In this document: piece after piece, positions 5,663 to 41,900 of the stretch
Numbering within the stretch: position 1 is the stretch's first letter
Layout: every line of letters starts with the position of its first letter
Source of the DNA: Runella sp. SP2
Lineage (GTDB): Bacteria > Bacteroidota > Bacteroidia > Cytophagales > Spirosomataceae
Assembly: GCF_003711225.1 (NCBI RefSeq)
Contig: NZ_CP031030.1
Location: 6,375,501 to 6,439,500, forward strand
Length of the DNA: 64,000 bases
Direction: 5' to 3'
Notes under the pieces: generated by a model
Told to the model about the DNA's origin: nothing
What the model saw: the letters and a program-made list of their open reading frames with translations, nothing else
Databases searched by the model: none
Program-made: the position numbers and the translations under genes

Positions 5663-5690
5663 CATCTTCCAGTAAAACAACGTACCCGTG

Positions 5691-6422
5691 ATGAAAAACC
5701 ACCTCCAAACTTTTCCCGATAGCCCCGTTGCTTTCACTATGGTAGCGATTGAAGGAAACAGGCAAGGCGACCCGTTTAAAATGAGCGATACATACCGAGT
5801 ACGCTTAGACGATTTTTGGATGGGCGAATACCCCGTGACCCAAGCCTTGTGGGCCTACGTGATGCGTGATACCGATAGTGCTGACCCCTCTCGTTTTAAA
5901 GATGCCAACCGCCCTGTAGAGCGAGTTAGTTGGAATGATATTGACCAACTTTTTTTACCCAGACTTAATGATCAAACCAAAGCCCAACGCCCCGAGGGAA
6001 CCTTGTACCGTTTGCCCACGGAAGCCGAATGGGAATACGCGGCACGAGGGGGAAAGTACTGGTGGGAATACCCATTTGAATACGCAGGGAGTAATAAATT
6101 AGAGGAAGTGGGTTGGTATGCAGAAAACAGTCAAAATGAAACGCAGGTAGTAGGATTAAAAACGCCGAACCTATTGGGTTTGTACGACATGAGTGGGAAT
6201 GTATGGGAATGGTGTATTGATTGGTACGGTTCTTATCCAAGCTCAGCTAAGAATGTTATATCCAATCCTACAGCTACTACGGGAACGGACCGCGTGTATC
6301 GCGGCGGTAGCTGGAACCGCAACGCGCAGAACTGCCGCTCTACGTTCCGCAACAACTACTGGCCTGTGTTTCGCTTCAACGACGTCGGTCTTCGGTTGGT
6401 TCTTTCTTTCTCTGTAGTTTAG
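5691..6422 (+). CDS. SUMF1/FGE-sulfatase-fold protein A, with a DGR-like variable C-terminus
   Basis: A 243-residue protein of the formylglycine-generating-enzyme-like (SUMF1, C-type lectin-like) fold. Diagnostic motifs are FWMGEYPVTQALWAYVM, RPVERVSWNDI, YRLPTEAEWEYAARGGK, GLYDMSGNVWEWC and RVYRGGSW...CRSTFR...VGLRLV. Of the FGE redox cysteine pair only the second seems present (NCRS), so oxidase activity is unlikely and a ligand-binding role more plausible. Residues about 195-243 are the putative DGR variable region (6274-6419). ATG at 5691 is preceded by an in-frame GTG at 5688. It lies 28 bp after pbpC and is the first of three tandem paralogues ahead of the LRR-Roc-COR-CHAT gene. No signal peptide is visible. 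Confidence 0.88.
   Translation: MKNHLQTFPDSPVAFTMVAIEGNRQGDPFKMSDTYRVRLDDFWMGEYPVTQALWAYVMRDTDSADPSRFKDANRPVERVSWNDIDQLFLPRLNDQTKAQRPEGTLYRLPTEAEWEYAARGGKYWWEYPFEYAGSNKLEEVGWYAENSQNETQVVGLKTPNLLGLYDMSGNVWEWCIDWYGSYPSSAKNVISNPTATTGTDRVYRGGSWNRNAQNCRSTFRNNYWPVFRFNDVGLRLVLSFSVV
6274..6419 (+). other. Putative DGR variable region VR-A
   Basis: A 146-bp segment at the 3' end of SUMF1 gene A, aligned without gaps to 8008-8153 in gene C. I count 23 differences by eye. At each one the two bases are compatible with A in a shared template: either one copy still has A, or both have non-A bases. Invariant codons (CGC, TGC, CGC, TCT, TGG, CCT, GGT, CTT, CGG, TTG) show no silent changes at all, whereas the genes just upstream differ at many synonymous sites. 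Variable codons are mostly of the NNC/AAC type, as in DGR targets. The template repeat and reverse transcriptase are not in the window. Confidence 0.75.
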
Positions 6423-6460
6423 AAGGGTAAATCCCGTGAGCAAAAAAGGGTTCATTGCAC

Positions 6461-6555
6461 CACAAAGAGCACAAAGAAATTTCTACAAAGAACGCAATGA
6501 AATGCTTTTCCTTTGTGGCCATTGTGCCCTACTTTGTGTACTTTGCGTTTAAGAA
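6461..6555. repeat. Intergenic imperfect inverted repeat, SUMF1 copy 1
   Basis: The stretch between genes A and B holds CACAAAG/GCACAAAG runs on the left and CTTTGTG/ACTTTGTGTACTTTGCG runs on the right, forming a long imperfect hairpin. A closely similar copy lies between genes B and C (7307-7402). Both are preceded by the shared string AATCCCGTGAGCAAAAAA, showing that gene and spacer were duplicated together. Confidence 0.75.
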
Positions 6556-6572
6556 AAAGGAAGGCTAAAAAC

Positions 6573-7274
6573 ATGAGAGAAACCTATACCCAATTTAAAA
6601 ATACCCCCGCCGCGTTTAAGATGCTTTGGGTGGAGGGAGGTGTATTTGAAATGGGTAGCGAAGGTGAATATTCTGATTCTTTGCCTGTTCATAAAGTTGA
6701 GGTAAATAGTTTTTGGATGGGAAAGTTTGCTGTTACTCAGGCGTTATGGACGTATGTAATGCAAGAAAATCCCTCGAAATTTAAAGGAGCAAACCGTCCC
6801 GTAGAAAATGTGTCTTATAAAGATATTATGAACGAGTTTTTGCCGAGACTGAAGAATATGACGGGGCTTGACTACCGTTTACCTACGGAAGCCGAGTGGG
6901 AATACGCAGCACGGGGTGGAAAATATGGGCAAAAATACCCTTTTGAGTACGCGGGCAGTAATAAATTGGAGGAAGTAGGCTGGTACGATAAAAACAGTCA
7001 AAATGAAACGCAGGTAGTAGGTTTGAAAACACCGAACCTCTTGGGGCTGTACGATATGAGTGGCAGTGTATGTGAGTGGTGTAGTAAGGAAGGTGATAAT
7101 ACAGACTTTATTGTAGACGGATTACTGTTTCGTGGCACATTTCCGTACCGTGGAGGAGGGTGGATAGATACCCAGGACAAGTGTAATTTAATACGTTCTA
7201 CTAAAGATTTTTCAGGTATCTGTATTAGCTATGTCGGCTTTCGACTGGCTCTTTTATATAGCTCAGTAGAGTAA
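6573..7274 (+). CDS. SUMF1/FGE-sulfatase-fold protein B (no variable region)
   Basis: A 233-residue paralogue of proteins A and C. It keeps FWMGKFAVTQALWTYVM, RPVENVSYKDIM, YRLPTEAEWEYAARGG and GLYDMSGSVCEWC, and has the N-terminal extension EMLWVEGGVFEMGS-type strand typical of SUMF1 domains (here KMLWVEGGVFEMGS). Its C-terminus (RGGGWIDTQDKCNLIRST...VGFRLALLY) follows the fold but does not match the A/C variable template, so it looks like an ordinary fixed member. ATG at 6573 is chosen over an upstream ATG at 6513, which would translate the intergenic repeat. The function is probably binding rather than formylglycine synthesis. Confidence 0.85.
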   Translation: MRETYTQFKNTPAAFKMLWVEGGVFEMGSEGEYSDSLPVHKVEVNSFWMGKFAVTQALWTYVMQENPSKFKGANRPVENVSYKDIMNEFLPRLKNMTGLDYRLPTEAEWEYAARGGKYGQKYPFEYAGSNKLEEVGWYDKNSQNETQVVGLKTPNLLGLYDMSGSVCEWCSKEGDNTDFIVDGLLFRGTFPYRGGGWIDTQDKCNLIRSTKDFSGICISYVGFRLALLYSSVE

Positions 7275-7306
7275 AATCCCGTGAGCAAAAAAAGGGTTCA
7301 TTTTAC

Positions 7307-7402
7307 CACAAAGGACACAAAGAAATTTGCACAAAGAACGCAATGAAAGGCATATACTTTGTGGCCATTGTGCCCTACTTTGTGTACTTTGCGTTTAAGA
7401 AA
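7307..7402. repeat. Intergenic imperfect inverted repeat, SUMF1 copy 2
   Basis: This is the second copy of the CACAAAG...CTTTGTG element. It shares long identical blocks with 6461-6555, such as TTTGTGGCCATTGTGCCCTA followed by CTTTGTGTACTTTGCG. It separates SUMF1 genes B and C and ends just before the start codon at 7419. Confidence 0.75.
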
Positions 7403-7418
7403 AAGAAAGGCTAGAAAT

Positions 7419-8174
7419 ATGCAAAACCCTTACACCGAATTTAAAAACACCCCCGCCGCGTTTGAGATGCTTTGGGTGGAGGGAGGTGTATTTGAAATGG
7501 GTGGTGAAAGTGTATTGGGCGATGCTTTGCCTGTGCATAGAGTAAAGATAGACTCTTTTTGGATGGGAGAGTTTGCGGTGACGCAGGCGTTATGGGCGTA
7601 TGTGATGGCAGGTACAGACGAAGAAAACCTATCACGATTTAAAGACGCAAACCACCCTGTGGAAAGGGTATCTTACAATGATATTGTGTACGAGTTTTTG
7701 CCAAAATTGAAGGCTATGACAGGCCAACAGTACCGTTTGCCTACGGAAGCCGAATGGGAATACGCTGCACGAGGAGGGAAATATGGACAAAAATACCCAT
7801 TTGAATACGCGGGCAGTAACAAATTGGAGGAAGTAGGCTGGTACTATGAAAATAGCCAGAATGAAACGCAGGTAGTAGGATTAAAAACGCCGAACCTATT
7901 GGGCTTGTACGATATGAGCGGGAATGTATATGAATGGTGTAGTGATTGGTATGGTTGGGATTTCTATAGTAGTTCTACAGCTAATATATCAGACAATCCT
8001 ACAGGCCCTACTACGGGCTCGCACCGCGTGGGTCGCGGCGGTAGCTGGGGCCGCAATGAGAAGTACTGCCGCTCTACGTACCGCAGCAACGACTGGCCTG
8101 GGCATCGCAGCGGCGGCGTAGGTCTTCGGTTGGTTCTTTCTTTCTCTGTAGTTCAGGCGGGTAAAATCCCGTGA
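7419..8174 (+). CDS. SUMF1/FGE-sulfatase-fold protein C, with a DGR-like variable C-terminus
   Basis: A 251-residue paralogue of A with the same motif order: FWMGEFAVTQALWAYVM, HPVERVSYNDIV, YRLPTEAEWEYAARGG, GLYDMSGNVYEWCSDW, RVGRGGSWGR...YCRSTYR...VGLRLV. Residues about 197-245 are the second putative variable region. Relative to gene A, the stop codon just after the variable region has changed (TAG to CAG), so the protein reads seven extra codons (QAGKIP and the stop TGA) into the duplicated downstream sequence. The start is placed at 7419; an upstream ATG at 7359 lies in the intergenic repeat. The protein is followed after 140 bp by the LRR-Roc-COR-CHAT gene, its likely functional partner. 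Confidence 0.88.
   Translation: MQNPYTEFKNTPAAFEMLWVEGGVFEMGGESVLGDALPVHRVKIDSFWMGEFAVTQALWAYVMAGTDEENLSRFKDANHPVERVSYNDIVYEFLPKLKAMTGQQYRLPTEAEWEYAARGGKYGQKYPFEYAGSNKLEEVGWYYENSQNETQVVGLKTPNLLGLYDMSGNVYEWCSDWYGWDFYSSSTANISDNPTGPTTGSHRVGRGGSWGRNEKYCRSTYRSNDWPGHRSGGVGLRLVLSFSVVQAGKIP
8008..8153 (+). other. Putative DGR variable region VR-C
   Basis: A 146-bp partner of 6274-6419 with identical length and borders (CTACTACGGG at the left, TCTCTGTAGTT at the right). The codons read GGC, AAT, GAG, AAG, TAC, TAC, AGC, GAC, GGG, CAT, AGC, GGC, GGC where gene A has AAC, AAC, GCG, CAG, AAC, TTC, AAC, TAC, GTG, TTT, TTC, AAC, GAC. The inferred template is AAC/AAT/GAG/AAG at these codons. Nearly all differences change the amino acid. 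Confidence 0.75.
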
Positions 8175-8272
8175 GCAAAAAAGAAAGCGGAATGGAGTGA
8201 CAAGGCGACGCAGGGAGGAGGGACGACGACCAAGTGCCTTGTGACGAAATGAAGCGGCGGCAATACATAAAT

Positions 8273-8314: not shown

Positions 8315-11245
8315 ATGGCAAGGCTCAACGAACTTACCCAAAATCTCACCCTCCAACAAGACGACGGCCCCATCACTGCCGTGCGCTTGGTGAAAGGCTA
8401 CGACAACAGTTACGCGCTCAATGCCGCAGGGCACATCACGGCCTTGAGCCTTGGCAATAGCCAACTCAAGAAGTTGGTATTGGGCAAAGAAGCAGAAGCG
8501 TTAGAATACCTCTACCTCAGCGGGAGTGAGTCACTCACGGAGGTGGTTTTTGAAGTGCCTTTGCCGCAGCTTACGCATTTGTATTTGAACAATTGCGCCA
8601 TCAAGCAAATCACTTTCCCTGCGGGTTTCAGGTCTTTGCAGCAAATCTATCTGCAAAAAAACGGCCTGCAACGGCTTGTTTTTGAGGGAGATTACCCATC
8701 GTTGGTATTGATGGATGTGAGTGGGAATGCCCTGACTCAACTTTCGTTGCCTCAAGGCTTTGCCAATTTGACTTACCTGTATTTAAGCGGGAATCAGTTA
8801 GTAAGCCTTGAGGCGGCTAACTTGCCGAAATTGAGCACTTTGTACCTTCAAAACAATCAATTTTCAAACCTGCCATTCCATTTTCAAAATACCCAATCAG
8901 GCGAAATACAACTGTGGTTATCCAATGCCCCTTTAGTGGCTTTAGAGTCTTTACGCCTTTCTGCTAACCCACTGCCTGATGATATTCGAGGCTTTGTCGA
9001 AAATAACGATAATTGCCTAAACGAAATCAAAGCCTATTTCAAGGATTTATCCAAAGGAGAAACGTTGGACAATGAGTACAAAACACTCATTATAGGCAAT
9101 GGCAATGTTGGTAAGAGCTGTTTGGTAGAGCGTTTGGTCCACAATAGATTTAAAAACGAATGGGATTCGACTCATGGAATTTCGCTGGAACAGTTTCTAC
9201 ATAAAGACTACGTCTTCAACCTTTGGGATTTTGGCGGACAAGATATTTACCATGCCACGCACCGCCTTTTTATGCAGTCCAACGCCCTCTATTTGGTCTT
9301 GTGGGATTCAAAAACCGAACAGAGCGCGTTCACGGAGCATCAGATAGAAGAGAAGTGCCGTAAGTATGAGAACTATCCATTGGGTTATTGGTTAGACTAC
9401 ACCCACAATCAAGGCAAAAACAGCCCCGTGATGGTGGTTCAAACAAAAACAAAACGGGACGGGGAGAAAGATTTGGCTGAGATTCGGGCCGCCTATAATG
9501 ACGTTTTTTCTTTTCTGAAATTTGAGCACATTGACTCTCAGGAAGACGACTGGGACGAAAACGGCTTCAACCCATTACTGACCACTATGCGTTTGGCAGC
9601 AAAGCATTTTAATCGAAAACAGCAAACGCCTAAAAACAGGGCCGAGGTACGTCAGGCATTGCGCTTAAAACAAAAAGCGGGCGAAAAATACCTTTCCTTA
9701 GACGATTATTTGATTTTGGCAGAGAAAGTCACCAATCCAATCAGTGTTTTGGAAAATTGGCTGGTCAAAACAGGAGTAGTATTTTATCGGTCGGGTTTGT
9801 TTCAGGACAGTATCATTCTGGATCAGGCTTGGGCGATTGAGGCGATTTATACAATTTTCAGAAGAACCAACGAAAAAGGCCGCCGCAACGCCACTTATTA
9901 CGACATTCAAAGCCGCAATGGCAGATTCACGGGAGAGGACTTGCAGGGAATTTGGGAAGAAAAATACAGTCCAGAAGAGCAAAATTTGTTCGTAAGCTTT
10001 ATGCTTTCGTGTGAAATGTGTTTTGAAATTACTTCCCAAGAACATCCTGACCTCAAAAAATGGGAAGTTCGTTTTGAGCAGAGAAGTTTTGTAGCCCCGC
10101 AGTTGATGCCCGAAAATAAGTCCAAGAGCGTAGAAGATTTTTGGGAGTGGCGTTCGAGTTGGTATTTAACCTATCGCCACGATTTTCTGCATTACGGAGT
10201 TATTCAAAGTTTTATTGTACGTACTCAAACTCTTGCCGAAATGCGGGATATATGGAAATCAGGCATCTCTTTGAAAGATACGCACGATGGAGCCGTTCAT
10301 TACGCCCTGGTAGAATGTCAGGGCAATGAAATTCGGGTACGAGTGACGGCGGGAGGCAGAGTACTGCTTAATAAAATTCGGAACTTGTTTGAAAAACTGC
10401 GAGACAGCAAGGGCATAGAAACCGTCAGCCTTGACGGAGAAAATTACGTGCAGTTAGATGAATTGAAAAATCACTCCAAAGACAATCCTAAACTTAAAAC
10501 AGTGCATGGAACCTGGATAGAAGCCGCTGGGTTGGAAGTTTTCTTGGAAAGAGATGAAAATGCAAGTTTTGATAAACCTAAAGAATCGGAACAGCAAAGA
10601 TCAGAAAAAGAACACCCCTCAACAAAAAAAATGATAGACAACTCAACACCCCACGAAGTAACAATGGCCGAAGGCGCCCGTAAGTTTGTGCCTTTTAGTG
10701 AGATAGAAGGGAAGATTAAGATTTTGTTTTTGGCGGCTGGTACGTTAAATACAGGATTGGAAAGTCGTTTTCAAGATATTGTCAGGTTTTGGGATGAAAG
10801 TAATAAGTTTGACAAAGTCAAGGACAAACATGGTTTAGATAAGACGTTATTTAAAGGATTTCTTATCACAGAAAACCCCCATATTTTACATTATGGCGGT
10901 CACGGACATAAAGAAGGTATTATTTTAGAAAAAGGAGATTTGAAAGCAGAGACCTTAAAAAGCTACCTAAAACTATCCGCAAATGTTCAATGCGTTATCC
11001 TTAATGCTTGCAATTCGTTTGAAATAGCTATCTTAATAGCTGAATACGTACCGTATGTAGTAGCTACGCAAGCCGAAATTAATGATGATACAGCAGTCGC
11101 TTTTTCACGGGGATTTTATTTAGGTATTGCGGCTAATAAGACGATAGAAGAAGCATTTGAATTAGGGATTATCGAAATTGAGGATGAAGATTTGCCAGGA
11201 GCCGATATCCCGATTTTACTAAAAGGTATTCCGCCCAAATCATAA
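8315..11245 (+). CDS. LRR-Roc-COR GTPase with C-terminal CHAT protease domain
   Basis: A 976-residue four-part protein. Residues 1-230 are leucine-rich repeats (LTHLYLNNC, LTYLYLSGNQL, LSTLYLQNNQF). Residues about 255-430 are a Roc GTPase with P-loop GNGNVGKS (261-268), DFGGQD (305-310) and a QTKTKRD base-recognition segment. Residues about 450-700 resemble COR, the Roc dimerisation module. A charged linker leads to a CHAT caspase-fold domain (about 800-976) with HYGGHGH (His863 likely catalytic) and LNACNS (Cys899), so the dyad looks intact. Inference: the LRR senses, Roc-COR switches, CHAT cleaves. ATG 8315 is chosen; earlier in-frame codons run through a small ACCCGC-GAA-GCGGGT hairpin. 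A Trypco1 gene follows after 15 bp. Confidence 0.88.
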   Translation: MARLNELTQNLTLQQDDGPITAVRLVKGYDNSYALNAAGHITALSLGNSQLKKLVLGKEAEALEYLYLSGSESLTEVVFEVPLPQLTHLYLNNCAIKQITFPAGFRSLQQIYLQKNGLQRLVFEGDYPSLVLMDVSGNALTQLSLPQGFANLTYLYLSGNQLVSLEAANLPKLSTLYLQNNQFSNLPFHFQNTQSGEIQLWLSNAPLVALESLRLSANPLPDDIRGFVENNDNCLNEIKAYFKDLSKGETLDNEYKTLIIGNGNVGKSCLVERLVHNRFKNEWDSTHGISLEQFLHKDYVFNLWDFGGQDIYHATHRLFMQSNALYLVLWDSKTEQSAFTEHQIEEKCRKYENYPLGYWLDYTHNQGKNSPVMVVQTKTKRDGEKDLAEIRAAYNDVFSFLKFEHIDSQEDDWDENGFNPLLTTMRLAAKHFNRKQQTPKNRAEVRQALRLKQKAGEKYLSLDDYLILAEKVTNPISVLENWLVKTGVVFYRSGLFQDSIILDQAWAIEAIYTIFRRTNEKGRRNATYYDIQSRNGRFTGEDLQGIWEEKYSPEEQNLFVSFMLSCEMCFEITSQEHPDLKKWEVRFEQRSFVAPQLMPENKSKSVEDFWEWRSSWYLTYRHDFLHYGVIQSFIVRTQTLAEMRDIWKSGISLKDTHDGAVHYALVECQGNEIRVRVTAGGRVLLNKIRNLFEKLRDSKGIETVSLDGENYVQLDELKNHSKDNPKLKTVHGTWIEAAGLEVFLERDENASFDKPKESEQQRSEKEHPSTKKMIDNSTPHEVTMAEGARKFVPFSEIEGKIKILFLAAGTLNTGLESRFQDIVRFWDESNKFDKVKDKHGLDKTLFKGFLITENPHILHYGGHGHKEGIILEKGDLKAETLKSYLKLSANVQCVILNACNSFEIAILIAEYVPYVVATQAEINDDTAVAFSRGFYLGIAANKTIEEAFELGIIEIEDEDLPGADIPILLKGIPPKS

Positions 11246-11260
11246 AAATAGTTCAACATT

Positions 11261-11584
11261 ATGCCCAACATCATTTACGAATACCAAAACGAAAAAGGCG
11301 AAACCATTTTGGTGCAAGCCGAGGATATGCGCAGTACTTCCAATGTCCGTGGAGGCCGAGACAGCGAAGAGTCAACTATCAAAAGAGTACAAGTACGTTT
11401 TGAGGAAGCGCTAGGAACCGTAAAAGCGGCCGCAAGCGCGCTCAAAAACGTGGTAGATGAGGTAAAACCCGATGAGTTTTCGGTAGAGTTCAACCTCAAA
11501 GCTGAAGGGAAAGCGGGCTTTTTTGCCATTTGTCAGGCAGCCACGGGGGCAGAGTTTAAAATTACGTTGACGTGGAAAAAATAA
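11261..11584 (+). CDS. Trypsin-co-occurring domain protein (Trypco1, CU044_2847 family)
   Basis: A 107-residue protein. The opening beta strands (IIYEYQNEKGETILVQAED), the conserved RVQVRFEEALGTVKAAASAL helix, the VEFNLKAEGKAGFF strand and the terminal FKITLTWKK match the Trypco1 family. This small domain co-occurs with trypsin-like and CHAT peptidases and STAND-type NTPases in predicted bacterial conflict systems. It starts 15 bp after the CHAT gene and is surely cotranscribed with it. Its molecular role is not established for the family; an adaptor or protease-coupled function is usually supposed. No signal peptide is visible. Confidence 0.8.
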   Translation: MPNIIYEYQNEKGETILVQAEDMRSTSNVRGGRDSEESTIKRVQVRFEEALGTVKAAASALKNVVDEVKPDEFSVEFNLKAEGKAGFFAICQAATGAEFKITLTWKK

Positions 11585-23144: not shown

Positions 23145-23720
23145 ATGCTAAAACCTTTCTACCATGCCGAACTCACCGAAGCGGGCCTCGACGAAGTGGG
23201 GCGAGGCTGCCTAGCGGGTCCTGTGGTAGCAGCGGCCGTGATTCTTCCCAAAGACTACACCAACGAACTGCTTAACGACTCGAAGCAGTTGAATAAAAAT
23301 CAACGCGAAGCCCTTCGCAACGACATACAAGAGGCCGCCTTGGCTTGGGCCATCGCGGAAGTTTCTAACGAAGAAATTGACAAAATTAACATCCTCAGAG
23401 CCAGCTTTTTGGCCATGCACCGCGCCGTGGATCAGTTGGCGCTACGCCCCGAGCATTTGTTGGTGGACGGAAATCGCTTTACGCCTTACCCGTTTTTACC
23501 CCACACCTGCATCGTCAAAGGCGACGCCAAGTTTATGAGCATTGCGGCGGCTTCGGTACTGGCCAAAACCTACCGCGACGACCTCATGGAGCGCCTCGCG
23601 GTGGAGTTTCCGCACTATGGTTGGGAAAGAAATGTAGGCTACCCCACGCCCGTGCATCGGGCAGGCATTCGAGAGTTTGGTCCCTGTTCTTACCATCGGA
23701 TGTCGTTTCGATTGTTGTAA
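23145..23720 (+). CDS. rnhB: Ribonuclease HII
   Basis: A 191-residue enzyme that cuts the RNA strand of RNA-DNA hybrids and removes misincorporated ribonucleotides. The active-site acidic residues are visible in [14 protein letters not shown] (DE pair) and LLVDGN, with the conserved [17 protein letters not shown] helix and the C-terminal [24 protein letters not shown]. Length is typical. The stop codon TAA at 23718-23720 abuts the CRISPR array; the first, 5'-truncated repeat begins at about 23723. Confidence 0.97.
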
Positions 23721-23722
23721 TT

Positions 23723-24472
23723 TTTGCTTTCAAATTGAACATTGACGATATTTAACACAACCACTGTCACTTCGCAATGATGAAGTGCTTTGTTGTGGTT
23801 TGCTTTCAAATTGAACATTGACGATATTTAACACAACAAAACTTTCAACTACAATAGAGAAGGTTGAGTTGTGGTTTGCTTTCAAATTGAACATTGACGA
23901 TATTTAACACAACCGCAACCTCGCAGAACATAACCGTGGGTAGGTTGTGGTTTGCTTTCAAATTGAACATTGACGATATTTAACACAACAGAAGGGCAGA
24001 AAGTAGAAGCAATTCGCGAGTTGTGGTTTGCTTTCAAATTGAACATTGACGATATTTAACACAACTCAATGGAAGCTTTTTACGAAATGTTCTGGGTTGT
24101 GGTTTGCTTTCAAATTGAACATTGACGATATTTAACACAACAGGGCCTTATTCAGAATTACAGAAGTTGGTTGTGGTTTGCTTTCAAATTGAACATTGAC
24201 GATATTTAACACAACAGGCGAAGCGCACGTAAGAGCATAAGACTAGTTGTGGTTTGCTTTCAAATTGAACATTGACGATATTTAACACAACAGAAGGGCA
24301 GAAAGTAGAAGCAATTCGCGAGTTGTGGTTTGCTTTCAAATTGAACATTGACGATATTTAACACAACATAAGGATGCACTACAAACGCTGTAATAAGTTG
24401 TGGTTTGCTTTCAAATTGAACATTGACGATATTTAACACAACTGTTTTTACGTCGGAGGATGCCCATTTAAG
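23723..24472 (+). CRISPR. Type II-C CRISPR array, left part (10 repeats, 10 spacers)
   Basis: The 46-bp repeat starts GTTGTGGTTTGCTTTCAAAT and ends ATTTAACACAAC; its ends (GTTGTG/CACAAC) are inverted repeats. The first repeat (23723-23761) lacks the first seven bases. Full repeats start at 23792, 23868, 23944, 24020, 24096, 24170, 24246, 24322 and 24397. Spacers are 28-30 bp. Spacer 4 (23990-24019) and spacer 8 (24292-24321) are identical. The last spacer (24443-24471, plus one base of target duplication) touches the IS3 element. The crRNA strand is plus, because the tracrRNA anti-repeat pairs with the 5' part of the plus-strand repeat. Confidence 0.99.
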
Positions 24473-24513
24473 TGTGCTAACCGCTAATTATTGGACACGT
24501 AAATGATAGAAAG

Positions 24514-24747
24514 TTAGAGACTGTAAGCACAGATTTTAGTCTTATTTTGCGTTAATTCTTTCATATCAATGTTATGTTTGAGCAAATACTTGTAAGGACT
24601 TTGGAAAGCAATTCCTCCATGTATCCTCTCAAAATTATAGAAGTTTCTAAAGTCTTCCAATGTTTTTCGAGCATGCTTCAAATCGTTAAACTCAAACCTT
24701 TGACAGACACAACTTTCCATAATGGAATGATAGGCTTCGATGTGCGC
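24514..24747 (-). pseudogene. IS3 transposase OrfB, C-terminal fragment
   Basis: The frame reads HIEAYHSIMESCVCQRF...DFRNFYNFERIHGGI, the end of an rve-type IS3 integrase core including the third catalytic acidic residue. It continues directly from the N-terminal fragment (ending TPQQDAH at about 26193) once the IS256-family element and one 8-bp duplication are removed. Split by the insertion, it cannot give a working transposase. Confidence 0.88.
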
Positions 24748-24830
24748 GGGAGTGTAATATAAACTCTGTCTAGTGGTTAATTTGGGTCAAATTTAGTTTT
24801 TCTTTTCGATTTCAAATGCTTTTTTGATTT

Positions 24831-24897
24831 GTTATTGGATTTGTCAAGGGCGGCTGAGGTACGAGGCCGTTTATATACCCTTGACAAATCCAATAAC
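24831..24897. terminator. Long hairpin at the tail of the IS256 element
   Basis: A perfect 20-bp stem (GTTATTGGATTTGTCAAGGG, 24831-24850, with its complement at 24878-24897) has a 27-nt loop that itself contains CGGC/GCCG. It lies 34 bp downstream of the transposase stop. It may end transposase transcription or block read-through into the element from outside. Confidence 0.65.
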
Positions 24898-24931
24898 AGG
24901 CTATTTTTGCGTTTTACAATTGAAAGGAAAA

Positions 24932-26143
24932 CTACAGGTCTATTCGCATTCTATCACCAAACTTAATGTGTAATTGTTGGGCGGTAAGTGCCCAATTTTG
25001 CAAAGGAGACGTCCATTTTCGGCTTATATTTTCAACGGCCAAGTAAATCAATTTAAGTAGAGCCATGTCAGTTGGGAAAGCGCCTTTGGTCTTGGTAATT
25101 TTACGGACTTGCCTGTGAAATCCTTCTACTGCATTGGTGGTATAGATGAGCTTTCTAATATGCTCATCATAAGCAAAATAGGTGGATAATTTATGCCAGT
25201 TCTTCTGCCATGATTTAAGCACGACTGGATATTTTACCCCCCATTTATCTTCAAGTTTTTTCAATTCCAATTCAGCTTTGTCTTTGGTAGGAGCCTGATA
25301 GACTGTTTTTAAGTCCTGCATAAAGGCCTTTTGGTCTTTGGAGGCCACATATTTAAGCGAGTTGCGTATCTGGTGAATGATGCAAGTCTGAACCTCAGCT
25401 TGAGGGAAACAAGCCAATATTGCCTCCGAGAAGCCAGCGAGGTTATCCGTACAGGCTATCAAAATATCTTTTACCCCTCTGGATTTTAAATCTGTAAGCA
25501 CCGATAACCAAAAATTGGCACCTTCGCTTTCGGAGACATACATACCAATCAAATCTTTGTAGCCATGTCGATTAACTCCCAATACATTATAAACAGCACG
25601 AGTAACAACTCGACCACCTTCCCTTACCTTGTAGTGCATGGCGTCTAACCAAACAATGGTATAGAGACTTTCCAAAGGCCTACTCTGCCACTCTTTGACC
25701 TGCGGAATTACACGTTCGGTAATCTCGGAAAGGGTAGAATGAGATATTTCCACATCATACATTTGTTGGATATGATCGGATATATCTCGCAAACTCATCC
25801 CCTTACTATAGAGTCCGATGATTTGAGGGGCAAGGTTATCAGCTAAAACTGTTTCGCGTTTCTTGACGATTTGAGGAGTAAATGTGCTCTTTCGATCTTG
25901 GGGAGTACTCAAAATAATCTCACCAGAGGTGGTTTTGAGACGCTTGCTGCCTTTGCCATTGCGCTTGTTGCCTGATTCTCGCTCCTGTTCATCAAGATGA
26001 GCATTCATTTCCGACTCTAGCGCACTTTCTAAAAATTGTTGAAGTAAGGGAGCGAAAACCCCATTCTTGCCAGTTAATGATTGTCCCTTCATTAACTGCT
26101 CCAGCGCTTTGTCGCGCATCTGTTCAAATTCTGTCTTTTCCAT
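24932..26143 (-). CDS. IS256-family transposase
   Basis: A 403-residue transposase of the MULE/IS256 (transposase_mut) type. The N-terminal region includes SALESEMNAHLDEQERESGN, followed by the zinc/basic segment RNGKGSKRLKT. Catalytic-core motifs are IVWLDAMHYKV (first D), IACTDNLAGF (second D) and TTNAVEGFHRQVRK (E), all intact. CIIHQIRNSLKYV is the conserved family helix. Length is normal, so the element is probably still able to move. It is transcribed leftwards, antisense to the crRNA direction. Confidence 0.96.
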   Translation of the reverse strand: MEKTEFEQMRDKALEQLMKGQSLTGKNGVFAPLLQQFLESALESEMNAHLDEQERESGNKRNGKGSKRLKTTSGEIILSTPQDRKSTFTPQIVKKRETVLADNLAPQIIGLYSKGMSLRDISDHIQQMYDVEISHSTLSEITERVIPQVKEWQSRPLESLYTIVWLDAMHYKVREGGRVVTRAVYNVLGVNRHGYKDLIGMYVSESEGANFWLSVLTDLKSRGVKDILIACTDNLAGFSEAILACFPQAEVQTCIIHQIRNSLKYVASKDQKAFMQDLKTVYQAPTKDKAELELKKLEDKWGVKYPVVLKSWQKNWHKLSTYFAYDEHIRKLIYTTNAVEGFHRQVRKITKTKGAFPTDMALLKLIYLAVENISRKWTSPLQNWALTAQQLHIKFGDRMRIDL

Positions 26144-26192
26144 TGTTCTGTCTTAAAGTTAAAACTTTTAGACAGAGTTCAGTTTACAGTCT

Positions 26193-26919
26193 CATGTGCG
26201 CATCTTGTTGTGGTGTTGCAGGTTTTGTGAATTCTTGTTTAACTTGTTTATCTCGAAAATATTTTTGGACTTCAGTGGCTACAAACTGGCTGCCATTATC
26301 ACTCCTTACGCAGACTCCTGTAGGTAATTCGTAACTTTCAAAGAGGCTATCAAATAATGAAATGACATCCTCTTTCCTGATGGTAAAAGCACAATATTGG
26401 CCTAAATTCCACCTTGAATTTACATCTAACACCGTCAATACCTGCATACTTCTCTTTTTCCCTGATACCCAGACATACTTTATATCGAACTCCCAGTAAT
26501 CGAATGGGATTTGAGTCTGTGGAATCAAATTTTTTACCCAATTACGCTTCCCCATTTTAGAACTAATAGCGTACCTGCTTTGAAGTAAACCACTCTCTTT
26601 CATTAGTTTATAAACAGAATGCTTACTTACTCTAAAACCTAATTCATCTCTCAGGTAGATATAGGCTTTGTAATAACCATAATCAACAAAGGGTTTTTCA
26701 AACAGTTCTTTCAACGTTTCAATCACATGATATGCCTCTATTTTACCACCTTCTTCATTGAGAAATTCGGCATATGGTTTGCGCCCAGATTTGCCTAAAG
26801 TAGCTTTGTAATAATAACTGCTTCTGGCGATAAAACAGGATTTTAGAACGGTTTTAATACTACCTCCTGAAAGAATAAATTCATTGGCTACTTCCAAGCG
26901 AATTTGCTTACTTAAAGGC
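26193..26919 (-). pseudogene. IS3 transposase OrfB, N-terminal fragment
   Basis: Encodes the HTH_21 and integrase core of an IS3 OrfB: KPLSKQIRLEVANEFILSGG, then FVDYGYYKAYIYLRDELG, FDYWEFDIKYVWVS (first catalytic D) and VCVRSDNGSQF (second D). It stops at TPQQDAH, where the IS256-family element enters, so the catalytic E is on the other fragment. It has no good start of its own and is entered from OrfA by a -1 shift. Confidence 0.9.
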
Positions 26920-27208
26920 TTTTTTTTAACAAAGCATCCTTGATTCTAAGTGATAATTCTTTCTCAGCGATGATCTCTTTATAAGCTTGAATCTCCCGCT
27001 GAAAGCGAAGAATTTCTTTGTCCTTATTAGAGTTACTAACACCCGATGGGTTTGAAAAACCTCCTTTTTCGTAGTGGGAGACCCAGTTATAAATGTTCGC
27101 ACTGGAGACGTTAAACTCCTTAGAAGCCTTAGCAGCTCCGTGTTCTTTGTAGTACTTCACTATGGTCAGTTTTTCCTCCTGACTCCATGATTTTTGATGT
27201 TTTCCCAT
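26912..27208 (-). CDS. IS3-family transposase OrfA (helix-turn-helix)
   Basis: A 98-residue protein with an HTH domain (EEKLTIVKYYKEHGAAKASKEFNVSSANIYNWVSHY) followed by a leucine-zipper-like coiled coil (KEILRFQREIQAYKEIIAEKEL). It is the DNA-binding half of an IS3 transposase, normally fused to OrfB by programmed frameshifting. The gene itself is intact, but its partner is split. It lies 61 bp from the right end of the element. Confidence 0.93.
   Translation of the reverse strand: MGKHQKSWSQEEKLTIVKYYKEHGAAKASKEFNVSSANIYNWVSHYEKGGFSNPSGVSNSNKDKEILRFQREIQAYKEIIAEKELSLRIKDALLKKSL
26920..26927 (-). other. Programmed -1 frameshift site (A8 run)
   Basis: On the minus strand an uninterrupted A8 run followed by GC lies just before the OrfA stop. 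Slipping back one base here reads ...KKKPLSKQIRLEVANEF, joining OrfA to OrfB in the usual IS3 manner. The A AAA AAG heptamer is the classic slippery signal of this family. Confidence 0.8.
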
Positions 27209-27272
27209 TGAATCACAAATTTAAAAGTTGTACCCTAATTTGTGTCCAACTTTTTAGCGGGCTAGATTCTAA

Positions 27273-28155
27273 GTTGTGGTTTGCTTTCAAATTGAACATT
27301 GACGATATTTAACACAACGCTTGAGCAAGAACTTATGCGCCCAAACAGTTGTGGTTTGCTTTCAAATTGAACATTGACGATATTTAACACAACCGGGGGG
27401 GCGGTTTCGGAGGCGTCGGAAGTAGTTGTGGTTTGCTTTCAAATTGAACATTGACGATATTTAACACAACCTCTTCTGCTTAGCTATGCAGTACGAATCG
27501 GTTGTGGTTTGCTTTCAAATTGAACATTGACGATATTTAACACAACCGACGAACTAACTCCAAAAAAACTAAGAGAGTTGTGGTTTGCTTTCAAATTGAA
27601 CATTGACGATATTTAACACAACTTGTGCAGACAACGAACATAGTCATTGTGCGTTGTGGTTTGCTTTCAAATTGAACATTGACGATATTTAACACAACTG
27701 CCGCCGCTAAGCAAAGGATACATTTCTGGTTGTGGTTTGCTTTCAAATTGAACATTGACGATATTTAACACAACAATTGGGTACACTATCGAAGACCCTG
27801 AAAGGTTGTGGTTTGCTTTCAAATTGAACATTGACGATATTTAACACAACTTACTCAGCAGTCAGGAAAAACGTCAGCTTGTTGTGGTTTGCTTTCAAAT
27901 TGAACATTGACGATATTTAACACAACCCAAGAGAGATTTTAGAGAAAGCCATGGCCGGTTGTGGTTTGCTTTCAAATTGAACATTGACGATATTTAACAC
28001 AACCTTCGAGTAAAAGATTAACCGCTACGCTCGGTTGTGGTTTGCTTTCAAATTGAACATTGACGATATTTAACACAACCGCTGGTGTCGGAGTACAATA
28101 AGCTCACGGGTTGTGGTTTGCTTTCAAATTGAACATTGACGATATTTAACACAAC
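27273..28155 (+). CRISPR. Type II-C CRISPR array, right part (12 repeats, 11 spacers)
   Basis: Twelve copies of the same 46-bp repeat start at 27273, 27348, 27425, 27501, 27577, 27653, 27729, 27805, 27881, 27958, 28034 and 28110. They appear identical to each other and to the full repeats on the left. Spacers are 29-31 bp and all different. The last repeat ends at 28155 without visible decay. With the left part this was one array of 22 repeats and 21 spacers before the IS3-family insertion. Confidence 0.99.
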
Positions 28156-28288
28156 AGAACGTTATTTATCGTTCAGTAAATCAACAAGTTGCCAAGTTTT
28201 GACAAATTAAAAAAGAGTAAGTTGTTTAGACGTTATTTTCAAGAATAAAAGAGTGGTACGCATAAATCTGAAATACATTTTTTCAAAT
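28156..28288 (+). promoter_or_regulatory. Candidate CRISPR leader
   Basis: A 133-bp A/T-rich stretch with no ORF follows the intact terminal repeat. In type II-C systems transcription can run from promoters within repeats toward the leader, and the decayed repeat is at the opposite end, which matches here (truncated repeat beside rnhB). The leader assignment is therefore an inference from which end is degenerate. Confidence 0.4.
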
Positions 28289-37544: not shown

Positions 37545-40500
37545 ATGATTCGAAATGTTTTACGCATTATTGGGTGTGCGGTGTTTTGGGCCGCGTGGCT
37601 GCTTCATTTTGAAGCACACACTCAGGCTGTACCCTGCGGAACTCCCCACGAAAATGCGGACGAAATTCAGCGCCGAGAAAGCCGAGTCATTCAGCTAAAA
37701 CAAAAGTTTGCCGAACAGTACGCAACAGCCGCCATTCAAACGGTTCAGTATATCCCAATAAAAGCGCATATACTAAGAAGAACAGATGGTACAGGCGGCC
37801 TTAGCATCGCAGATCTCAACATCGCGCTTGCCCAAGTCAATTCGTATTATATCAACGTAGGTAGCGGGCTCCAATTTTATTTTTGTGGTTCTCCCAATTA
37901 CGTCAATAACACCACTTTCTACGATTACGACAATACCGAAGAGTCTCCCCTCTGTAATGCCAACGATGTGACGAACGCCATCAACGTTTATTTTCCCAAT
38001 ACCATACAGTTTGGCAGTTTGGCAGTGTCAGGATACGCGTACTTTCCGAGTACTTTGGCAAGCACTAATCGACTTTTTGTACAGGCCAGTAATGCTACCG
38101 ATTTGCGAACGTTTACGCACGAATTAGGCCACTATTTTAATTTATTACATACTTTCCAAGGAAGCACAGACCCCAATTTAGCCAACCGTGAATTGGTTCA
38201 GGGAGGCAACTGTGCAACAAAAGGAGATTTGGTTTGTGACACCCCTGCCGATCCTTACGGACGAGATTCGGTAAGCTTGCTCGGCTGTAGTTATACTGGA
38301 ACGGCACGAGATCCCCAAAATCAGTTGTACAATCCGTCGCTTTCCAACATCATGTCGTATTATCCGATTGCGTGCGGAAATACTTTTACGGCAGGGCAAA
38401 TGAACCGAATCAGCGGAGGGGTTTTGTTACGAACTGATGGTGCAAACCAATATTCACTCACTTGTGGTTCTACCGTCACAGGAGCTAATGTGCCAAGTAA
38501 TTTAGCAGGAATACTAGGGCCATCGGGAGTAACGCTGACATTTACCGACAATTCTTCTAACGAGTCAGGGTTTATCATTGAGCGCTCAACGACCTCCGCT
38601 ACCGCGGGTTTTGTACCTATTGGCGGTATTGCACCCAACGTTACGACTTACTTAGACCAAACAACCACCGCGTTTACGACTTATTATTACCGCGTAAAGG
38701 CATCCAATTCTTCGACCGATTACAGCGCTGTATATAGCATCACTACAGGGCTTAACTATTGTACTCCAACCTACACTACGCCATGTTCGACGCTCCAAGT
38801 ATTGATTGATGATTTTATCTTGAGACAGGGAGCCACAACCATCATTAACAACGTCAACTCCAATTGTTCGCCAGGTAATTTTGGAGATTACACCTCCACG
38901 CTTTACAACGTAACCGCAGGTAGTACTTACACGTTTACGGCGAGGGCTACTTCAGGGGGCGTTGGTACTTATTTTGACCAACATATTACGATATGGCTTG
39001 ATTATGACCAAGATGGGGTCTTTGAAGCATCCGAAAGGGTATATCAAAGTACGGATATTTCTTCGACAAGGATGAACCCTACGGCAACCAACTCTTTCAC
39101 AATCCCAGTGACGGCAAGCGGAATGGTACGAATGCGGGTAAGGTCAAGTTATAACTCGGGGTCGGGTAGTGCAGTTACCGATCCTTGCGTTAACTTAAAT
39201 TATGGAGAAGCCGAAGATTATAGCTTAATGGTCTCAGGGGCGTCGCCGCCCTCTATTACGACTGGTAGCGTCACGCCGAGTACCGTATGTGCTGGTCAAA
39301 GTGTCAGTGTTAGTTTCACAACTTCCAATTTAACCTCTACTTCGTACGTCGTTCAGCTGTCGGATGCGGCTGGAAATAATTTTGTTGATATTCCAACAAC
39401 GGGAACAAGTAGTCCATTAACCGCAACAATTCCTGCTGGAACGTTAAGTGGAACGGGCTACAGGGTTCGCGTCAATTCTGTTTCACCGAGTGTAACGGGT
39501 TCAAACAGCGCAACCTTTACCATCAATAGCATTCCAAGTGCTCCCACCGCTACGACGCCAATTAATTACTGTCAAAACCAAACAGCCGTGGCACTGACGG
39601 CCACGGGCAGTAATTTGTTGTGGTACACGGTAGCCACGGGTGGGTCAGGCAACGGGACAGCCCCGACCCCATCAACTTCAACTGCAGGCACAACCAGTTA
39701 TTGGGTATCTCAAACGGTAAGTGGTTGCCAAAGTAGTCGCACAAAAATTGACGTCATTGTCACGGCCGCACCAAGTGCTCCCGCCGCTACGACGCCAATT
39801 AATTACTGTCAAAACCAAACGGCGGTAGCGCTGACGGCCACGGGCAGTAATTTGTTGTGGTACACGGTATCCACGGGCGGTACAGGCAACGCCACAGCGC
39901 CAACCCCATTAACTTCAACCGCAGGCACAACCAGTTATTGGGTATCTCAAACGGTAAATAGCTGCGAAAGCAGTCGCACAAAAATTGACGTCATTGTCAC
40001 GGCCACGCCAAGCGCTCCTGCCGTTACGACGCCAATTAATTATTGTCAAAACCAAACGGCGGTAGCGCTGACGGCAACGGGCAGTAATTTGTTGTGGTAC
40101 ACGGTATCGGCGGGTGGAACAGGTAATTCTACAGCGCCAACCCCATCGACTTCAACCGCAGGCACAACCAGTTATTGGGTATCTCAAACGGTAAATAGCT
40201 GCGAAAGTAGTCGCACAAAAATTGACGTCATTGTCACGGCCACGCCAAGTTCTCCTGCCGCTACGACGCCAATTAATTATTGTCAAAACCAAACGGCGGT
40301 AGCGTTGAGTGCAACGGGTAGTAATTTGCTGTGGTACACGGTATCGACGGGTGGGTCAGGCAATTCGACTGCGCCAACCCCATCAACGACGACAGTGGGT
40401 ACAACCAGTTATTGGGTATCTCAAACGGTAAATAGCTGCGAAAGCAATCGCACAAAAATTGACGTTGTTGTGAGTTCTACGCCACCTCCGCCTTCAGTAA

Positions 40501-41900
40501 CAACTCCTGTTAATTATTGTCAAAACCAAACGGCGGTAGCGCTGACGGCCACGGGCAGTAATTTGCTTTGGTACACCGTAGCGACGGGAGGTACAGGCAA
40601 CGCCACGGCACCGACGCCTTCAACGACGACCGCAGGCATAACCAGTTATTGGGTATCTCAGACCTTGGGCAGTTGTGGTAGTAGTACCCGAGCAAAAATA
40701 GATGTCGTCGTTACAGCTACGCCAAGTGCTCCTACCGCAACGACACCGATTAACTATTGCCAAAACCAAACGGCGGTAGCGCTGACGGCCACGGGCAGTA
40801 ATTTGCTTTGGTACACCGCAGGGACGGGTGGTACGGGTAACGCCACGGCACCGACGCCATCAACGACAACGGCAGGTACAGCCAGTTACTGGGTATCTCA
40901 AACGGTAAGTGGCTGCGAAAGTAGTCGTACAAAAATTGATGTGAATGTGACGGCTACGCCTGCTGCTCCTACAGCTACGTCGCCAATTAACTATACACAA
41001 GGACAAACAGCAAGCCCATTAACCGCTACGGGTACGTCTTTAAAATGGTACACGGTCCCAACGGGAGGAACATTTAATACGACAGCCCCCACACCATCGA
41101 CGGCGGCAGTGGGAACCACCAACTATTATGTATCCCAAACGGTAAATTCGTGTGAAAGCCCACGGGCAACCATCGTTGTAAACGTTACTTCTACGTCAAC
41201 CTCTGTGGCGTGCCCAACCATAAAAATATATTTGGAAGGTGTTTGGGGAAGTACTGAAATGTCAACGACGCTCAACCAACAAGGGCTATTGCCTGGCCAA
41301 ACACCCGTAAGCCCCTTTGGAGTAGCTACTCCTGCTGGTCAACCTTATAAAACAGCCCCTTGGAATTATTTGGGCACAGAGACGGTAAGTTCTTACGACA
41401 GCGATGTGGTAGATTGGGTGTTGATTTCACTACGAACGGATGTAACCAATACCTCCTCAACGGTCTATCGAACTGCGGGTTTACTTCGTAAAAATGGTAA
41501 TGTGACCTTGGTGGCAGCTTGCCCTACTTTGTCCACGTCGCAGTCTTATTATGTTTTGGTAGAACACCGAACGCACGTTGGGGCGGCGTCTCATACACCT
41601 GTAGCCATTGCAAGCAATAAGATTACGTACGATTTTACCCAGCAACAGTCCTATATTCCTTCCAATGCACCTGCGTCGGGGCAGCTTCAGGTTGGAGCTA
41701 TTCACTGCTTATTTGCGGGGGATTCAAACAAATCTTCTTTTGCTGAGATAAATGCTAATGACTCAAGCACGTGGCGCTTAGACAACGGGAAATTTGCGCG
41801 CTATTTACTGACGGATTATAATTTAGATGGAGAAGTAAATGCCAACGACGACATTCTCTGGAGGAAAAACAACGGAAAATTTTCAGGCGTAAGTTTTTAA
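37545..41900 (+). CDS. Secreted M43-type metalloprotease with Ig-like repeats and dockerin-like tail
   Basis: A 1451-residue extracellular protein with an N-terminal signal segment (VFWAAWLLHFEAHTQA). Residues about 60-305 form a pappalysin-like M43 metalloprotease with HELGHYFNLLH (His192, Glu193, His196) and a Met-turn NIMSYYP. A fibronectin-like part and a GEVED domain (NYGEAEDYSLMV) follow. Residues about 665-1218 are seven near-identical 79-residue Ig-like units. A lectin-like or adhesin-like domain precedes the C-terminus, which ends with two dockerin-like calcium loops (one is DYNLDGEVNANDD). No type IX sorting domain is visible. The next gene encodes a cohesin-like protein that may bind the tail. 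Confidence 0.85.
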   Translation: MIRNVLRIIGCAVFWAAWLLHFEAHTQAVPCGTPHENADEIQRRESRVIQLKQKFAEQYATAAIQTVQYIPIKAHILRRTDGTGGLSIADLNIALAQVNSYYINVGSGLQFYFCGSPNYVNNTTFYDYDNTEESPLCNANDVTNAINVYFPNTIQFGSLAVSGYAYFPSTLASTNRLFVQASNATDLRTFTHELGHYFNLLHTFQGSTDPNLANRELVQGGNCATKGDLVCDTPADPYGRDSVSLLGCSYTGTARDPQNQLYNPSLSNIMSYYPIACGNTFTAGQMNRISGGVLLRTDGANQYSLTCGSTVTGANVPSNLAGILGPSGVTLTFTDNSSNESGFIIERSTTSATAGFVPIGGIAPNVTTYLDQTTTAFTTYYYRVKASNSSTDYSAVYSITTGLNYCTPTYTTPCSTLQVLIDDFILRQGATTIINNVNSNCSPGNFGDYTSTLYNVTAGSTYTFTARATSGGVGTYFDQHITIWLDYDQDGVFEASERVYQSTDISSTRMNPTATNSFTIPVTASGMVRMRVRSSYNSGSGSAVTDPCVNLNYGEAEDYSLMVSGASPPSITTGSVTPSTVCAGQSVSVSFTTSNLTSTSYVVQLSDAAGNNFVDIPTTGTSSPLTATIPAGTLSGTGYRVRVNSVSPSVTGSNSATFTINSIPSAPTATTPINYCQNQTAVALTATGSNLLWYTVATGGSGNGTAPTPSTSTAGTTSYWVSQTVSGCQSSRTKIDVIVTAAPSAPAATTPINYCQNQTAVALTATGSNLLWYTVSTGGTGNATAPTPLTSTAGTTSYWVSQTVNSCESSRTKIDVIVTATPSAPAVTTPINYCQNQTAVALTATGSNLLWYTVSAGGTGNSTAPTPSTSTAGTTSYWVSQTVNSCESSRTKIDVIVTATPSSPAATTPINYCQNQTAVALSATGSNLLWYTVSTGGSGNSTAPTPSTTTVGTTSYWVSQTVNSCESNRTKIDVVVSSTPPPPSVTTPVNYCQNQTAVALTATGSNLLWYTVATGGTGNATAPTPSTTTAGITSYWVSQTLGSCGSSTRAKIDVVVTATPSAPTATTPINYCQNQTAVALTATGSNLLWYTAGTGGTGNATAPTPSTTTAGTASYWVSQTVSGCESSRTKIDVNVTATPAAPTATSPINYTQGQTASPLTATGTSLKWYTVPTGGTFNTTAPTPSTAAVGTTNYYVSQTVNSCESPRATIVVNVTSTSTSVACPTIKIYLEGVWGSTEMSTTLNQQGLLPGQTPVSPFGVATPAGQPYKTAPWNYLGTETVSSYDSDVVDWVLISLRTDVTNTSSTVYRTAGLLRKNGNVTLVAACPTLSTSQSYYVLVEHRTHVGAASHTPVAIASNKITYDFTQQQSYIPSNAPASGQLQVGAIHCLFAGDSNKSSFAEINANDSSTWRLDNGKFARYLLTDYNLDGEVNANDDILWRKNNGKFSGVSF
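39538..41200 (+). repeat. Seven tandem 237-240-bp repeats encoding Ig-like domains
   Basis: Units begin near 39538, 39774, 40011, 40248, 40485, 40725 and 40962. Each encodes a domain starting with ATTPINYCQNQTAVALTATG or close variants and containing NLLWYT, TSYWVSQTV and RTKIDV. Units 1-6 are very alike at DNA level; unit 7 has drifted (SPINYTQGQTA). Such near-identical repeats suggest recent expansion or recombination and can vary in number between strains. Confidence 0.93.

Follow-up and report, generated by a model that had tools for sequence, protein, structure and literature searches.

Two of the three tandem SUMF1 genes in a stretch of the Runella sp. SP2 chromosome, here called A and C, are very probably orphaned targets of a diversity-generating retroelement (DGR) that has been lost from this lineage and whose cassette formerly lay between A-type and C-type SUMF1 genes. 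The stretch, called the window, is 64,000 nt of contig NZ_CP031030.1, and all coordinates are window positions. Gene A occupies 5691 to 6422 (PF03781, 137 bits) and gene C 7419 to 8174 (PF03781, 154 bits), both on the forward strand. The genome of Runella sp. SP2 (7.6 Mb, four contigs, 99.98% complete) was compared with relatives in a genus set of 13 genomes and a wider set of 59, both counts including Runella sp. SP2 itself, and in a family set of 222. Four congeners recur below: Runella defluvii DSM 17976, G006, G009 and G007, the last a draft genome.

A first-pass annotation of the window had drawn attention to the 3' ends of these genes, and its counts were reproduced. The segments 6274-6419 in A and 8008-8153 in C align over 146 positions without gaps and differ at 23, of which 16 have A in one copy. 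The differences are distributed over codon positions 1, 2 and 3 as 10, 10 and 3. Upstream of the segment the two genes differ at silent sites, as had been claimed, with 91 of 192 third positions changed, compared with 2 of 43 third positions within the segment at columns where the G007 template introduced below lacks A (p=1.6e-8). The statement that the segment contains no silent change was slightly off, since silent changes account for three of the 18 codons that differ in it (GGA/GGC, AAC/AAT and GTC/GTA). The observation that all differences are compatible with A in a shared template is uninformative when drawn from two copies, because every difference satisfies it; the share of differences with A in one copy is 16/23 in the segment and 110/183 upstream. 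It gains content from an actual template, that of G007, in which 18 of these 23 sites are indeed A.

Given that the template comes from another genome, comparison with it is not circular. Variable region (VR) cores of 133 bases, at 6281 to 6413 in gene A and 8015 to 8147 in gene C on the forward strand, were aligned to the G007 template, which has 35 adenines and 98 other bases. The 23 differences between A and C fall on 18 of the adenines and 5 of the other bases (p=9e-9), and the template has A at five of the seven sites where neither copy carries one. In both genes the changes are concentrated at template adenines: gene A departs from the template at 14/35 adenines and 5/98 other sites (p=3.5e-6), and gene C at 21/35 and 9/98 (p=6.9e-9). 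The orthologues in R. defluvii behave likewise (18/35 and 7/98 for A, 23/35 and 7/98 for C), such that across the four VRs of the two species 29 of the 35 template-adenine columns are variable, as against 5 of the 98 others. As positive control, the C-type gene of G007 differs from its own template repeat (TR) at 20/35 adenines and nowhere among the other 98 bases; the A-type gene of G007 differs at 22/35 and 2/98. The negative controls lack the pattern. The intervening gene B shows no adenine bias against the template (18/35 versus 58/98, p=0.84) and is nearly constant between Runella sp. SP2 and R. defluvii (1/35 versus 1/98), and the first SUMF1 gene of the array differs between G009 and G006 at 0/35 template adenines and 4/98 other sites. 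The remaining changes at bases other than A in genes A and C, some of them common to Runella sp. SP2 and R. defluvii, would fit a slightly different template in this lineage combined with decay.

The template belongs to an apparently complete DGR, as judged from its sequence, that lies at the syntenic locus of G007. The gene order there is PBP1C, SUMF1 A, HRDC, reverse transcriptase (RT), template, SUMF1 C, Roc-COR-CHAT and Trypco1, and it is syntenic with the window. An SLFN/AlbA-like protein and PBP1C were identified in the neighborhood by sequence, and the LRR-Roc-COR-CHAT and Trypco1 proteins by Pfam. The RT has 335 amino acids, matches RVT_1 and phrog_1423 (305 bits), carries the motifs IGNLTSQ and YMDD, and is 32% identical to Brt of the Bordetella phage BPP-1; its gene overlaps that of the HRDC protein (PF00570) by 20 bases, and the TR is located at its 3' end. 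The locus therefore combines an RT bearing the (I/V/L)GxxxSQ motif of DGR reverse transcriptases (PMC3521204) with a TR, VRs and an HRDC gene, a known DGR accessory (PMC10053308, PMC4891356). Together, the independent template and the apparently intact element at the syntenic locus strongly support the DGR origin of the variation that the first-pass annotation had proposed.

No such element was found in Runella sp. SP2. The absence of an RT and a TR from the window was confirmed, and the genome search that had been suggested for both returned neither. The RVT_1 profile has no match in the genome, the G007 RT has none at E<=0.001, and the G007 template DNA finds genes A and C only at E<=0.01 (12 of 19 first-look candidates scored). 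The gene C segment finds itself, gene A and otherwise short stretches of E 0.17 or more. A tblastn search of the window revealed no HRDC relic; HRDC and Avd were not searched genome-wide. Among the relatives, the G007 RT has no match in R. defluvii or G006 at E<=0.001 and finds a deletion scar alone in G009; the other RVT_1 genes of these genomes (one, one and five, respectively) were not classified one by one. The single RT of R. defluvii, on C18, shows an identity of 19% across 165 residues. In the same species, a 15-residue RT-like hit lies antisense within the Roc-COR-CHAT frame and was judged to be chance. An RVT_1 match of some kind occurs in 28 of the 59 genomes of the wider set; the G007 RT matches 10 of the 59 at E<=0.001, at full length in G007 alone; the others are partial or distant, and one is the G009 scar. 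In the family set of 222, this RT has matches at E<=1e-20 in six genomes, one of them G007. An adenine-tolerant scan of the G007 locus and of six loci from the other five genomes recovered the G007 pair and gave template/variable pairs at five of the six loci and none at L122. A plain blastn self-comparison of 14 loci yielded no repeat pair of at least 45 bases and missed the known G007 pair as well, so it was too strict to count as evidence.

The SUMF1 array is present in five species, judged from hits of at least 57% identity and their neighbors: one (G007) has the element, two (G006 and G009) have a scar and two (Runella sp. SP2 and R. defluvii, which share the same A-B-C layout) have neither. 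The scar lies in the same place in G009 and G006. It retains RT residues of roughly 273-294 and 327-335 together with the two ends of the template, whose middle is deleted. Its breakpoints agree within a few bases, and the two copies are 6% diverged over 320 bases. The best reading is that the element is gone in Runella sp. SP2 and R. defluvii and was reduced to a shared deletion scar in G006 and G009. Two separate losses are the simpler account; a possible alternative is that the element was lost once and that the line of Runella sp. SP2 and R. defluvii later shed the scar.

Taken together, the following order of events is proposed. An HRDC-RT-template cassette would have been flanked by one A-type and one C-type SUMF1 gene, next to the LRR-Roc-COR-CHAT/Trypco1 system. 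The RT would have made copies of the template in which random bases replaced the adenines, a step for which the enzymology is borrowed from known DGRs and the footprint is seen in the VRs, and the mutated copies would have overwritten the 3' ends of both SUMF1 genes. The cassette would have been lost later, and the position is now occupied by B, a duplicated C-type gene; the synteny is observed, and the sequence of steps is presumed. Both VRs would now be fixed alleles.

Several observations weigh against this account. The intact element was found in only 1 of the 13 genus genomes, the draft G007, in which it runs across a contig break, the two contigs sharing 119 identical bases. No scar of the element remains in the window, and the four-contig assembly of Runella sp. 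SP2 may miss a plasmid. Two comparisons among relatives fall short of a clear signal: between the A-type and C-type genes of G007, codon positions 1 and 2 differ at 11/33 template-adenine sites versus 84/368 upstream (p=0.13), and the deficit of third-position changes in the third array gene between G009 and G006 is 3/43 versus 31/198 (p=0.10). In addition, orthologues in species without the element differ from each other at template adenines. Gene A of Runella sp. SP2 and gene A of R. defluvii differ at 17/35 of these, and the two C genes at 22/35, with 3/98 other sites in each case, and the third array gene differs between G009 and G006 at 24/35 template adenines versus 4/98 other sites, even though these two species share a scar. 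Since Runella sp. SP2 and R. defluvii have the same layout, neither shows a DGR and they yet differ at adenines, a single loss before their split followed by clonal descent is insufficient. For neither pair of species can plain clonal inheritance since the loss account for the adenine differences.

The same differences would be expected if the retroelement still acted in trans, as the first-pass annotation had supposed, the source being an unassembled plasmid or phage; distant targets have been reported for some DGRs (PMC3521204). This explanation is very unlikely. That searches of a four-contig genome 99.98% complete found neither RT nor template leaves it unsupported, and an RT at least 60% identical to that of G007 occurs in none of the 145 phage and none of the 1785 plasmid records that matched; the closest viral RT, among the 80 viral loci listed, is 39% identical. 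The missing RT and template are better explained by a lost element than by action in trans. A second rival assumes no DGR in the history of the lineage: once the genes had duplicated, binding-site residues would have come under diversifying selection and the remainder under purifying selection. It draws some support from the fact that the differing codons fall in the region aligning with the terminal part of the DGR variable protein TvpA, a part that we take to bind ligands. It is the least probable of the explanations considered and already disfavored: selection on residues does not cause third positions to be nearly frozen in the segment and divergent upstream, the changes follow adenines in a template that belongs to a different genome, and a congener has a DGR at this syntenic position. 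A third possibility, gene conversion, could have homogenized the 3' ends of A and C and left ordinary mutations behind, and it would suit both the common 3' ends and repeated flanks of the two genes and the resemblance, by eye from translations, of the R. defluvii A gene just before its VR to C-type genes. Conversion would, however, be expected to erase differences evenly rather than to leave them at template adenines in the proportions seen above, and as the sole cause it is likewise already disfavored and most improbable.

How orthologues came to differ at adenines after loss of the element is possibly explained by allele exchange with DGR-bearing relatives. The divergence between Runella sp. 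SP2 and R. defluvii, measured in 150-base steps, is a mosaic: 2-5% at the PBP1C end, 10-23% in gene A, 0.7-5% in gene B except for 15% at its 5' end, 7-17% in gene C, 3-14% in the Roc-COR part, 44-48% at the CHAT end and 2% in Trypco1. Third positions of gene C before the VR are changed at 36/203, compared with 120/1119 in B, PBP1C and Trypco1 (p=0.004), and between G009 and G006 the third array gene has 31/198 third positions changed and the first 17/198 (p=0.02). Alternatives for the adenine differences are a trans element that is now missing, or variable alleles that were already segregating when the element was lost. Extending the exchange reading, a minority of DGR-bearing lineages might supply diversified VR alleles, which homologous recombination would carry into relatives that have lost the element, the DGR serving as a shared source of recognition diversity. 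This proposal is tentative and somewhat less likely true than false; it is favored by the adenine differences between the two species with one scar and by genes A, C and the CHAT end standing out as islands of divergence where PBP1C, Trypco1 and most of B remain at 1-5%, and it is weakened by the divergence of the Roc-COR part itself.

The CHAT end (10,740-11,245) is also swapped between species, the R. defluvii version being G007-like and that of Runella sp. SP2 different. Between R. defluvii and G007 the CHAT end is 95% identical and the first part of the gene 82%.

Orphaned DGR targets have a precedent. Treponema denticola isolates without an RT and TR carry DGR target genes that were read by the authors as leftovers of DGR loss (PMC4891356). 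As in those orphans, the Runella VRs differ from the TR of DGR-bearing relatives mostly at adenines, and the HRDC accessory gene overlaps the RT gene, in T. denticola as in G007 (PMC4891356). Unlike the T. denticola case as described there, which concerns one species, that of Runella spans species of one genus, lies in a Roc-COR-CHAT/Trypco1 locus and includes a deletion scar common to two species. Likeness to the DGR of BPP-1 (AY029185) extends from the G007 RT, with its GxxxSQ motif, to the adenine-targeted changes from TR to VR and the position of the VR at the 3' end of the gene; unlike BPP-1, Runella sp. SP2 has no RT or TR that could be found, an HRDC gene adjoins the RT in G007, and the inverted repeat 3' of the VR is weak, with no GRNA loop seen. 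Kaur et al. described conflict systems in which a DGR-diversified FGE/FGS domain is found by conflict genes, with a Trypco1 domain (PMC7159879). The DGR-linked systems set out in that account are vWA-MoxR (VMAP) ternary systems, cyanobacterial and gammaproteobacterial, whereas the partner here is LRR-Roc-COR-CHAT. Schillinger et al. noted that some DGRs are possibly non-functional and mentioned an RT with heavy mutation in the vicinity of distal targets (PMC3521204). A limited literature search found no paper with both "diversity-generating retroelement" and "Runella", and what it gave on remote, orphaned or decayed DGRs was largely unrelated. Orphaned targets are thus a known kind; the locus, the two-species scar and the mosaic are new as far as these searches show.

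The locus demonstrates that footprints of a DGR can be recognized after loss of the machinery by means of a relative's template, and that a single locus within a genus has probably seen loss on more than one occasion. Genes of this kind would be missed by surveys that, like the one described in PMC8144416, take an RT beside its target as their anchor. With the element in G007, the scar in G006 and G009 and a clean replacement in Runella sp. SP2 and R. defluvii, what becomes of diversified genes once a DGR is lost can be tested directly.

A short complementarity between the flanks of template and SUMF1 genes was also noticed. Immediately 3' of the G007 template stand 12 bases whose exact reverse complement, AATCCCGTGAGC, lies just 3' of most Runella SUMF1 genes and occurs in the window on the forward strand at 6430 to 6441, 3' of the gene A VR, at 7275 to 7286, 3' of gene B, and at 8165 to 8176, 3' of gene C, where it is accompanied by a short imperfect inverted repeat. 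An exact complement of 11-12 bases (11 in one) is present in 12 of 14 Runella SUMF1 genes and one of 7 bases in the two non-varying first-gene copies; the background is at most 10 bases in 400 window pieces away from the locus. Flank pairing was rejected as a general DGR rule. From 80 viral DGR-RT loci fetched, some of them near-duplicates, 69 gave a usable pair, with a mean longest complement of 6.1 versus 5.8 in mismatched pairs; complements of 9 or more occur in 6/69 true pairs versus 71/4692 mismatched ones, and that of BPP-1 is 9. A GC-rich hairpin with a 4-nt loop just downstream of the VR is described as a DGR motif, and stem swaps in BPP-1 indicate that the stem sequence can vary (PMC3240598). 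Downstream of the VRs only short imperfect inverted repeats were seen, and the loop is not GRNA. The region 3' of the template in the scarred loci (L082 8913-9095 and L085 4870-4683) is about 87% identical to that of G007 despite the deleted RT and template core, and in G007 it folds into several hairpins. This retained region may have kept or gained another role.

In both genes A and C the VR lies at the 3' end of a gene predicted to have the C-type lectin (CLec) fold, on the basis of PF03781 and of TvpA as the best solved relative. By sequence, the solved structure closest to gene C is that of variable protein 1 of Treponema denticola (TvpA, 2y3c, E 3.7e-27), which ranks above formylglycine-generating enzymes (FGE). 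When aligned to 6muj, gene C lacks the first of the two cysteines that follow RGGS and retains the second (YC), such that the gene lacks the cysteine pair of active FGE, which we take to be the catalytic one. Given TvpA as best relative and the missing cysteine, the product of gene C is more likely a binding scaffold than an enzyme. The gene A open reading frame has a GTG start at 5688 and an ATG at 5691, and in the gene tree A is placed with its G007 counterpart in an A-type clade of seven rows (support 100/100). Gene B (6573 to 7274, forward strand, PF03781, 125 bits) is a C-type duplicate without adenine-targeted variation that occupies the place of HRDC-RT-TR in G007; in a tree of the upstream parts it clusters with the C genes of Runella sp. 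SP2 and R. defluvii (support 86/88).

Downstream lies a gene for an LRR-Roc-COR-CHAT protein (8315 to 11245, forward strand; Pfam Roc, COR-A, COR-B, LRR and CHAT). Its frame was listed from a GTG at 8234, and the ATG at 8315 is, by eye, the start of the G007 homologue; its CHAT end is replaced relative to R. defluvii and G007, with a jump in divergence at about 10,740. A Trypco1 domain protein follows (11261 to 11584, forward strand, PF19493, 73 bits), present in 3 of the 13 genus genomes, Runella sp. SP2 included. These neighbors suggest a predicted conflict system, broadly of the kind set out in PMC7159879. Judged by family and context, the products of A and C are probably CLec-fold binding proteins that feed this system.

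Contig C21 of G006 (81 kb; L090-L092) contains many FGE-domain matches, several of which have template-like 3' ends; the sole RVT_1 match of that genome is on another contig. Elsewhere in the window, positions 23716-28177 hold two CRISPR-like arrays, in which the repeat is 46 bases long and the spacers measure about 30 bases, and a unit of 237-240 bases is repeated six times in tandem at 39534-41021, the copies being 64-91% identical to the first.

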